Position numbers and translations under genes: made by a program. A DNA stretch of 64,000 nucleotides, taken from positions 992,001 through 1,056,000 of the forward strand of contig NZ_CP007588.1 of NCBI RefSeq assembly GCF_000732905.1. Reading direction: 5' to 3'. Below are positions 45,725-48,686 of the stretch, in pieces. The DNA is from Weissella tructae. GTDB lineage: Bacteria; Bacillota; Bacilli; Lactobacillales; Lactobacillaceae. The notes under the pieces were generated by a model. That model had not been told where the DNA came from. It searched no databases and saw only the letters and a program-made list of their open reading frames with translations. Numbering within the stretch: position 1 is the stretch's first letter; each line of letters begins with the position of its first letter.

Positions 45725-46645
45725 TTACATCGCTCCCTTCTTAGCAATTGCACGAATAACTGAGTTAAAGAATAGTGACATCAACAATAGGATTAATGCC
45801 AAACTCCACAACGCATTGTTTTGAAGTGATCCCATAACCGTGTTTCCAATTCCTTGTGTCAACACTGATGTTAGTGTTGCTGCTGGAGAAGTTAGATTAT
45901 GTGGCATCAAAGCAGCGTTACCAACCACCATTTGTACGGCCAAGGCTTCACCAAAGGCACGCGCCATTCCAAAGACCATCGCAGTCAAGATACCTGGTGT
46001 TGCACCACGCAAGATAACCTTGTAAATCATTTGCCAACGTGTTGCTCCAAGAGCTAACGCTGATTCACGATAGTGACGAGGCACAGCCTTCAATGTATCA
46101 ACAGTCATAGATGTAATCGTTGGTAGAATCATAACGAAAAGGACAATCGCCCCTGACAAGATTCCAAATCCTGAACCACCAAATGTATTACGCATAAATG
46201 GCACCAAAACTGATAACCCAATAAATCCGTAAACAACTGATGGAATTCCAACCAATAGTTCTGTAACAGGTCCCAAAATCTTAGCACCACGCTTAGGTGA
46301 GATTTCAGTCATGAACAAAGCTGTTCCGATGGCAAACGGTGTTGCGATCAATGCAGCAAGCAATGTAACCAAGAATGATCCAACGATCATTGGGGCAGCA
46401 CCAACAAAAGGTACGCCATTAGCATCTTTTTGACCTGGGGCCCACTTAGTACCCGTTAAGAAATCCCAAAGATTAATCTTATCAACGAAGAAAGTGGCCA
46501 ATCCCTTAGATGCGACGAAATAAAAGATTGAAACAACAACGGCTACAATCAACAACAAGGCTGATAGTGATACGATGCGTCCAAATTTATCACGACGGCT
46601 AGCTTTAGATTCCTTTAACAAGGACTCGCGAATTTCGTCCATCAT
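45725..46645 (-). CDS. pstC: Phosphate ABC transporter permease PstC
   Basis: 306 residues, six membrane helices after a charged cytosolic N terminus. The EAA loop ALALGATRWQMIYKVILRGA is clear. Start is ATG 46645 (overlapping the pstS stop as TAATG) or the next codon ATG at 46642, which has the better distance to the GGAG ribosome site. Confidence 0.96.
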   Translation of the reverse strand: MMDEIRESLLKESKASRRDKFGRIVSLSALLLIVAVVVSIFYFVASKGLATFFVDKINLWDFLTGTKWAPGQKDANGVPFVGAAPMIVGSFLVTLLAALIATPFAIGTALFMTEISPKRGAKILGPVTELLVGIPSVVYGFIGLSVLVPFMRNTFGGSGFGILSGAIVLFVMILPTITSMTVDTLKAVPRHYRESALALGATRWQMIYKVILRGATPGILTAMVFGMARAFGEALAVQMVVGNAALMPHNLTSPAATLTSVLTQGIGNTVMGSLQNNALWSLALILLLMSLFFNSVIRAIAKKGAM

Positions 46646-47523
46646 TATTCTCCTTTAACAGCGTGTACATTTCCATTAACATCACGTTCAACTTCCATCT
46701 CGTGAATTGAAATGTATCCTAGTTGTGGTACAAGTGTTCCTTGAATTTTTTCTGAATTTAAGTGTTCAATGAACTTTTGGACACCGGCACGTGGTTGTCC
46801 CTTCGTGTACACATGTTCATATGACCAGATTGGCCATTCACTTGTCTTAACAGTGGCTTCTTCTGGCTTAACACCATCCAAAGTTGGTACTGAAATTGAG
46901 TTATCCAAGTACGCAAACGCAGCGTATGAGATTGCACCTGGTGTTGTTGCCACGATTTGACGTGTCATACCTGATGAATCTTGTTCTTGTGCGTCCATTG
47001 ATTCGTGTTCCTTAAGTCCCCACTTCTCAAATGTTAGACGGGTTCCTGATCCAGACACACGGTTAACAACAACAACTGGCAAATCAGCACCGCCGATTTC
47101 CTTCCAGTTCTTGATCTTACCTGTAAAGATATCAATCAATTGTTGTTGTGTTAAATTGTCAATTTTATTTTCTTTATTAAGCATTGGAGCGATTCCTACG
47201 ACAGCGACCTTGTGGTCAACTAGCGCACTCGCATCGATTCCTTCTTTTTCTTCCGCAAACACGTCAGAATTTCCCAAATCGACAGCTCCTGATTGAACCT
47301 GTGCTAACCCGGTTCCAGTTCCACCACCTTGCACGTTAACAAACGTCCCTAAATGCTCATTGGCGAAGTCTTCACCAGCAGCTTCCACAAGTGGTTGTAG
47401 CGCGGTTGAACCAACCGCAGTAATGTTCTCACCACCATTTTCGTCACGTGTGACATAACCCCACGTCAACAAACCTCCAATGGTCGCAAGAATGGCAATA
47501 ATGATAAACCAACTACGTTTCAT
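46645..47523 (-). CDS. pstS: Phosphate-binding protein PstS
   Basis: 292 residues. ITAVGSTALQPLVEAAGEDF, NVQGGGTGTGLAQVQSGAVDLGNSD and NRVSGSGTR are the phosphate-binding loops. A hydrophobic N-terminal helix (residues 5-21) is present, but no Cys of a lipobox follows it, unlike most Firmicute PstS; the protein is presumably held by an uncleaved signal anchor. First gene of the pst operon. ATG 47523 has AGGAG ten bases upstream; PhoP-type TTTACA repeats lie further upstream. Confidence 0.95.
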   Translation of the reverse strand: MKRSWFIIIAILATIGGLLTWGYVTRDENGGENITAVGSTALQPLVEAAGEDFANEHLGTFVNVQGGGTGTGLAQVQSGAVDLGNSDVFAEEKEGIDASALVDHKVAVVGIAPMLNKENKIDNLTQQQLIDIFTGKIKNWKEIGGADLPVVVVNRVSGSGTRLTFEKWGLKEHESMDAQEQDSSGMTRQIVATTPGAISYAAFAYLDNSISVPTLDGVKPEEATVKTSEWPIWSYEHVYTKGQPRAGVQKFIEHLNSEKIQGTLVPQLGYISIHEMEVERDVNGNVHAVKGE

Positions 47524-47575: not shown

Positions 47576-47603
47576 TGTAAAATAGTCATCACAGTTGTGT
47601 AAA
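47576..47603 (-). promoter_or_regulatory. Candidate PhoP box upstream of pstS
   Basis: On the minus strand two TTTACA hexamers begin exactly 22 bases apart (two helical turns), the spacing class of PhoP direct repeats (11-base periods). The intermediate repeat at 11 bases does not match. The downstream copy may double as the -35 for an AATAAT -10 about 16 bases further on. Supports phosphate control of pst, but is incomplete relative to B. subtilis PhoP boxes. Confidence 0.45.
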
Positions 47604-47631: not shown

Positions 47632-47907
47632 TTACACGGCACCGAACGTTGTTGCCCACGCTAGCATTAAGACGGTTGCAGCGTTCAAACCTAAAATCAG
47701 GCTATATAGGATACGTTGACGCTTAGTTAAATCTTGTGTCAACAATTGCACCCCGAAGAACACAAAAATCATCAACATTGCCAAGATAATCAAACTTTGG
47801 CGACGAATCATCAGTTGTGACAACATCACCACAATCAAGGCAACGTTATACCACAATGAATTTACCACTGGCGCCAAGACATTGGCCCACTTTTTTAAAT
47901 TACTCAC
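47632..47907 (-). CDS. Small three-helix membrane protein, paralogue 3 of a tandem set
   Basis: 91 residues, GTG start at 47907 with GAGGAG six bases upstream. Three hydrophobic segments. It shares with its two upstream neighbours Pro13, Trp19 and Gln31 at the same positions, and the K-x2-R-x2-Y motif (Lys62, Arg65, Tyr68) before the last helix. No family recognised. It ends 108 bases before pstS. Confidence 0.75.
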   Translation of the reverse strand: MSNLKKWANVLAPVVNSLWYNVALIVVMLSQLMIRRQSLIILAMLMIFVFFGVQLLTQDLTKRQRILYSLILGLNAATVLMLAWATTFGAV

Positions 47908-47932
47908 ACAAAACTCCTCATTCGAATGTGTC

Positions 47933-47951
47933 CGTTATTCTATGAATAACG
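47933..47951. repeat. Short inverted repeat between two of the paralogous membrane genes
   Basis: CGTTATTC-TAT-GAATAACG, eight perfect pairs and a 3-base loop, without a T tract on either strand. It could be an RNA hairpin affecting mRNA stability or a protein-binding site. Confidence 0.5.
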
Positions 47952-47957
47952 ACTAAA

Positions 47958-48218
47958 TTAACCAAAGAGAGCTACGATATGTAACCCCACAGAAAACAAC
48001 ACTAAAACTAACAATATGTAATAAAACACACGCATGCGCTTGCTATGATTACCTGCTACTAAATTGGTGAACACCATCATCAACACCAATAGTGATGAGA
48101 TTAACACCATCGGATCCACAAATAGTTGTGCTAACACAACACCCGTCAAAAGAATTAAAAACCAGACTGAATTCACAATCGGTTCTAACGCATATGCTAA
48201 TTTATTTACCCACTTCAT
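47958..48218 (-). CDS. Small three-helix membrane protein, paralogue 2 of a tandem set
   Basis: 86 residues, ATG 48218 with GAGGAG nine bases upstream. Pro13, Trp19 and Gln31 align with the other two copies; Lys60, Arg63 and Tyr66 form the same K-x2-R-x2-Y motif, two residues earlier because the middle loop is shorter. Hydrophobic segments at about 18-34, 38-54 and 66-84. Starts 17 bases after the first paralogue. Confidence 0.76.
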   Translation of the reverse strand: MKWVNKLAYALEPIVNSVWFLILLTGVVLAQLFVDPMVLISSLLVLMMVFTNLVAGNHSKRMRVFYYILLVLVLFSVGLHIVALFG

Positions 48219-48235
48219 CTATGCCCGCTCCTCGT

Positions 48236-48502
48236 TTAAGCAAACCATGCTGCAATTTCCAAAACAATCATCAAGGCATATAGACCTAAAATCACGTAAT
48301 AGAAAGTACGTTGTTGCTTCGTTAACGTTACTGTCAATAGATTTACCATCACAAGTAGTAGTACCAATGTCATTGATAAAAAGGTTGTTAATGGCGTACG
48401 GAAAAAGAATTGTGACAAAATAACGCCACCAAAAATAATCAAAAACCAAACGGTTTGAATATATGGCTTAATCGCAAAAGCAAATTTTGTTAATAACTTC
48501 AA
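48236..48502 (-). CDS. Small three-helix membrane protein, paralogue 1 of a tandem set
   Basis: 88 residues, TTG start at 48502 with GAGGA seven bases upstream. Hydrophobic segments at about 18-34, 40-57 and 67-86. Carries Pro13, Trp19, Gln31 and Lys62/Arg65/Tyr68. It is the first gene of the trio and probably of a transcript reading towards pst; a TATACT -10 candidate lies at 48547-48542. Function unknown. Confidence 0.75.
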   Translation of the reverse strand: MKLLTKFAFAIKPYIQTVWFLIIFGGVILSQFFFRTPLTTFLSMTLVLLLVMVNLLTVTLTKQQRTFYYVILGLYALMIVLEIAAWFA

Positions 48503-48634
48503 AATGTATTCCTCGTTTTCTTAAATGACGTCAATCATACAAGTATACTATATTTTCACAAGCAAGACGTGCTTATATCGCGCTTTATACGCTTTAATTA
48601 TCCTAAATTTAAGGTTGTTTTTCGTAAAAATTGC

Positions 48635-48640
48635 TATAAT
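48635..48640 (+). promoter_or_regulatory. -10 box of the ybjQ-like gene
   Basis: TATAAT lies 46 bases before the ATG at 48687. A TTGTTT at 14-base spacing is the only -35 candidate and is not ideal. Confidence 0.5.
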
Positions 48641-48686
48641 TCAGCATTATAACAAACGATATTTATCATCCTGAAAGGACTATATT

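Follow-up and report, generated by a model that had tools for sequence, protein, structure and literature searches.

Background

Several described systems offer points of comparison for short membrane proteins encoded in tandem. Small multi-span proteins that occur as diverged paralogues, with a patchy distribution and a variable number of copies, are typical of immunity gene sets, among them those of the bacteriocin immunity proteins of lactic acid bacteria. ORFan families of small membrane proteins consist of short sequences that are found in close relatives only, have no recognised homologues and evolve under purifying selection, and DUF3397 (PF11877) comprises small, hydrophobic membrane proteins of Bacillota. 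A different kind of comparison is provided by the Pho-regulated pst operons of Gram-positive bacteria, as in the pneumococcus, in which a putative Pho box, TTTACACAATCTTTACA, lies upstream of pstS1 (PMC4913102).

The locus described here lies in a window of 64,000 nucleotides, by which we mean the whole stretch of Weissella tructae DNA that was analysed (positions 992,001 to 1,056,000 of contig NZ_CP007588.1; coordinates below are counted within it). Three short genes stand there directly upstream of a pst operon, an adjacency that would tempt annotators to call them phosphate genes, although the evidence from promoters and distribution argues otherwise. They belong with the ORFan families, from which they differ in forming three tandem, anciently diverged copies, and they probably represent a clade-restricted family of membrane proteins that is a unit of its own and no part of the phosphate system. 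The family is uncatalogued, has real selective value and occurs in a lineage with a trout pathogen among its members; Weissella ceti WS08 is an isolate from rainbow trout (PMC4153489).

A family of three paralogues

All three genes are encoded on the minus strand. Copy 1 (48236..48502) specifies a membrane protein of 88 amino acids and begins with TTG, copy 2 (47958..48218) a paralogue of 86 amino acids with an ATG start, and copy 3 (47632..47907) a paralogue of 91 amino acids with a GTG start; 17 bases separate copies 1 and 2, 50 bases copies 2 and 3, and 108 bases copy 3 and pstS. A GAGGA-type ribosome site is found a few bases 5' of each start. The MAFFT alignment of the three proteins spans their whole length, is free of gaps over its first 36 columns and has 16 invariant columns, which include K6, P13, W19, Q31, K62, R65 and Y68 (the last three being K60, R63 and Y66 in copy 2). 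An earlier note on this DNA had described just such a row of paralogues, with their separate ribosome sites, gapless N-terminal halves, shared Pro13, Trp19 and Gln31 and K-x2-R-x2-Y motif, three hydrophobic segments and co-directional position upstream of pst, and in all these points it is borne out.

Identity among the copies is 31-40%, with the highest value between copies 1 and 2, and pairwise BLASTP comparisons gave E values of 5e-15, 9e-14 and 1e-10 (each for a single comparison). When copy 1 was used to query the whole genome, only the other two copies were returned (E 6.9e-14 and 3.8e-9). Because membrane proteins may align by composition alone, the three pairwise scores were set against 2000 shuffles that retained the hydrophobic/polar pattern: the observed scores of 165, 128 and 110 compare with a shuffle mean of about 39 (sd 8) and maxima of 77-88, and not one shuffle reached the observed value. 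The three copies are one paralogous family.

A second genome of the genus (G002) carries two ORFs at the same site, which are orthologous to copies 1 and 3; the middle copy is missing. With the two orthologues added, 13 columns of the alignment are still invariant (M1, K6, A8, P13, W19, V27, L29, Q31, L55, K62, R65, Y68 and L74), among them the entire K-x2-R-x2-Y motif, and the orthologue of copy 1 keeps both the TTG start and the GAGGAA ribosome site. In a maximum-likelihood tree copy 2 branches between the copy-1 and copy-3 orthologue pairs (bootstrap 91 and 100), a position which indicates that the duplications took place before the two species parted and that the paralogues are old as well as diverged; the state of G002 is most simply explained by loss of copy 2. 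The earlier note had seen in the tandem arrangement a sign of amplification for dosage, or else of a hetero-oligomer. Old duplications, together with the absence of copy 2 from G002, are evidence against a recent dosage amplification and against an obligate complex of three parts, so that the first suggestion finds no support, the copies being no recent amplicons, and of the second the strict three-part form is unlikely, while a hetero-oligomer as such is possible.

The copy 1 proteins of the two species are 84% identical (pS 0.62, pN 0.09, dN/dS 0.072) and the copy 3 proteins 73% (pS 0.73, pN 0.20, dN/dS 0.082). Synonymous sites are near saturation, and the reading frames are conserved. The ratios resemble those of the neighbouring genes pstS (0.114), ybjQ (0.112) and nagD (0.05). 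From the many synonymous and few nonsynonymous differences we infer that the proteins are translated and have been under strong, long-term purifying selection.

Predicted topology of the proteins

AlphaFold models of copies 1 and 3, built on alignments of three sequences, have a mean pLDDT of 84 and 82 and place helices at identical positions (residues 3-15, 18-33, 37-57 and 62-87). The first of these would form a short, basic, amphipathic N-terminal helix, and the other three, within about these limits, would follow it as membrane helices. Basic residues concentrate at positions 2-12 and in the loop at 59-65 and are few elsewhere. According to the positive-inside rule basic segments lie on the cytoplasmic side, and from this distribution of charge the N-terminus and the K-x2-R-x2-Y loop are predicted to be cytoplasmic, in an N-in/C-out arrangement, in which the conserved basic loop would lead into the last helix. 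W19, Y68 and the basic residues are situated near the predicted edges of the membrane. Since tryptophan, tyrosine and basic residues are common at such edges, the shared K/R/W/Y pattern may in part reflect topology and not a specific activity.

Distribution of the family

Two of the 28 genomes of the genus possess the family, whereas pstS is present in 27. A profile search of the 26 other genomes found nothing credible, and tblastn at E 10 left no trace of the family at their pst loci. Searched with the same profile, overlapping samples of 399 genomes of the taxonomic family, 396 of the order and 398 of the phylum contained nothing credible; plasmids and phages yielded no match to the family and viral contigs no credible one. 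Seed scans of genome contigs with two alignments, which require short patterns to match exactly and may miss near records, found no relative either and agree with homologues confined to close relatives. The earlier note would have taken a set that is not conserved as evidence against its reading, and here the outcome is divided: the set is conserved at the same site, yet in these two genomes only.

A few weak matches were followed individually. Copy 3 alone as query matched two viral sequences, and the one examined is a chance match, antisense inside a capsid-like phage ORF of 397 amino acids. Among the weak matches in the taxonomic family sample (E 0.001-0.007), one is a frame of 75 amino acids opposite another ORF and others fall within long proteins; the remaining ones have in-frame stops or lie in long frames. 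A frame of 105 codons in one of 398 genomes (G892, contig L080, roughly 1383-1698 in reverse-strand coordinates; E 4.8e-4) resembles the family in its three spans and in a basic loop ahead of the last of them, yet the N-terminal part and W19 are missing from it; its likeness to the family is probably due to chance or analogy.

As the earlier note had anticipated in recognising no family, scans of the trio family against Pfam, NCBIfam, PHROG and PADLOC gave nothing above cut-off (the best PADLOC model, bearing on anti-phage defence, had E 0.19). No match was obtained with Rfam over the region of the trio, with the PDB by sequence profile, or with Foldseek at E below 2.4, for copy 1 against the PDB and viral models and for copy 3 against the PDB. 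Neither the literature searched on orphan small membrane proteins nor that on Weissella immunity proteins contained anything specific to this locus, and the main text of a comparative paper on Weissella ceti uses neither the term 'phosphate' nor 'membrane protein'. The family is new to the catalogues but ordinary in kind.

A possible role at the cell envelope

If the trio is a clade-restricted unit of its own, its history and mode of action might be pictured as follows. The common ancestor of the two species would have carried the family at the junction between ybjQ and pstS, and the copies would have duplicated and diverged before the species separated, to be kept thereafter by purifying selection. 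The genes would have a promoter of their own 5' of copy 1, and the proteins would most likely gather as homo- or hetero-oligomers within the membrane. These would serve the cell envelope, either in an accessory or stress capacity or by conferring immunity to a membrane-active compound, and would take no part in phosphate uptake. The anatomy of the proteins suggests such an accessory, stress or immunity role, which we put forward tentatively. The occurrence of three copies, two or none across genomes makes the family a comparative case for the role of a lineage-restricted small membrane protein.

A specific form of this explanation is immunity against bacteriocins or other membrane-active peptides, with the diverged paralogues differing in specificity. 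Small multi-span proteins, paralogues at the observed level of identity, a patchy distribution and a copy number that differs between species all accord with it. However, no bacteriocin precursor, exporter or two-component gene adjoins the trio in either species, no immunity family is matched in Pfam or NCBIfam, and strong purifying selection is less typical of genes engaged in an arms race, which leaves this specific form rather unlikely. Genes of stress response were likewise not found adjoining the trio.

Diverged paralogues might also assemble into hetero-oligomers that modulate a process of the envelope and could conceivably act on the adjacent Pst transporter too, by way of transcriptional read-through and physical contact, as a trait unique to a small Weissella clade; we hold this to be improbable.

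The pst operon and its promoter

The position of the trio invites another explanation, namely that its products join the Pst transporter or the phosphate-sensing kinase as accessory subunits, or regulate one of them, and that the genes are switched on along with pst by phosphate starvation. Downstream follow pstS (46645..47523, minus strand; TIGR02136, E 2.3e-77), which is the first gene of the operon and a neighbour outside the family, then pstC, pstA, two pstB-like ATPase genes and phoU; upstream stand the divergent ybjQ, a NagD-like HAD hydrolase, yutD and a 5'-nucleotidase-like phosphoesterase. The gene order around the trio is the same in G002. The trio, 108 bases before pstS, shares its strand with pst and keeps its place in both species, and the stretch from copy 3 to pstS showed no convincing terminator, so transcriptional read-through from the trio into pst is possible.

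The promoter elements point in another direction. A pair of hexamers, TTTACA-N16-TTTACA, lies between copy 3 and pstS (47576..47603, minus strand) and has the sequence TTTACACAACTGTGATGACTATTTTACA, the sole exact match within the window. TTTACA-like hexamers at the same spacing of 22 bases are found directly before pstS at 21 of the 27 pst loci of the genus, whatever lies upstream, amid sequence that shows little conservation otherwise, and are followed by a -10 element of the GATAAT/CATAAT type. Because one-mismatch matches to the TTTACA pair are no commoner across the genome than in a reversed control, the box is argued here solely from its conserved place; two other exact pairs occur in the genome, and neither stands before obvious phosphate genes. 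Its place before pstS, along with its likeness to the box of pneumococcal pstS1, in which the spacing is 11 bases instead of 22 (PMC4913102), suggests that the element is Pho-box-like and belongs to pst and not to the trio. Upstream of the trio there is no TTTACA pair, even with two mismatches allowed. The region between ybjQ and copy 1 (48503..48686, minus strand) holds instead a -10-like block, AAATATAGTATACT, which is conserved in the alignment with G002, and this region is the probable promoter of the trio.

The junction itself varies among species. One genome (G025) keeps the order nagD-ybjQ-pstS with a gap of 351 bases and no trio; another (G012, contig L058) has a CadD-type cadmium-resistance transporter gene (PF03596) and further small genes between ybjQ and pstS; two (G026 and G027) have an acetyltransferase-like gene at the junction upstream of pstS, and in several others a nagD-like gene stands directly before pstS. 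Different genes upstream of pstS in different species mean that the ybjQ/nagD-pstS junction accepts different cargo: what is inserted varies, while the promoter alongside is conserved. The link with phosphate supply that the earlier note had considered thus finds little favour: pst retains a Pho-box-like element of its own with or without the trio, no such box precedes the trio, unrelated cargo takes its place elsewhere, and an association of the family with pst operons holds in 2 genomes of 28, against 27 with pstS. A partnership in phosphate uptake or sensing is decidedly unlikely.

The PstS protein of this operon has an N-terminal signal anchor, MKRSWFIIIAILATIGGLLTWGY, without a lipobox cysteine, and a typical lipobox was seen in none of the other PstS N-termini examined from pst loci of the genus. 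The usual PstS of Gram-positive bacteria is a lipoprotein.

Established families and neutral cargo

The only weak lead in Pfam of the right size and phylum is DUF3397, of which the trio might be diverged members. Copy 3 matches PF11877 with E 0.019 and 15.6 bits, but this is below the curated cut-off of 25.9 bits, equally strong matches occur in much longer frames, and the other four members of the trio family do not match. Every genome of the genus, including the present one, has a separate DUF3397 gene above the cut-off elsewhere; the proteins of that family are longer and conserve other residues, with WW/WWR motifs in the genus that are missing from the trio family, and a profile-profile comparison with them (hhalign) gave a probability of 0.1% and no aligned core. 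Membership was rejected on both the HMM and the profile-profile comparison, and we regard a descent from DUF3397 as very improbable.

Equally remote is the idea of selfish or neutral cargo, that is, of recently born or acquired membrane ORFs with no cellular function, which would fit the restriction to two species and the low G+C of copies 1 and 2 (33% and 37%, against 41.5% in the window) but is largely refuted by the test for selection, in which dN/dS of 0.07-0.08, near-saturated synonymous sites and conserved frames indicate long-term selection.
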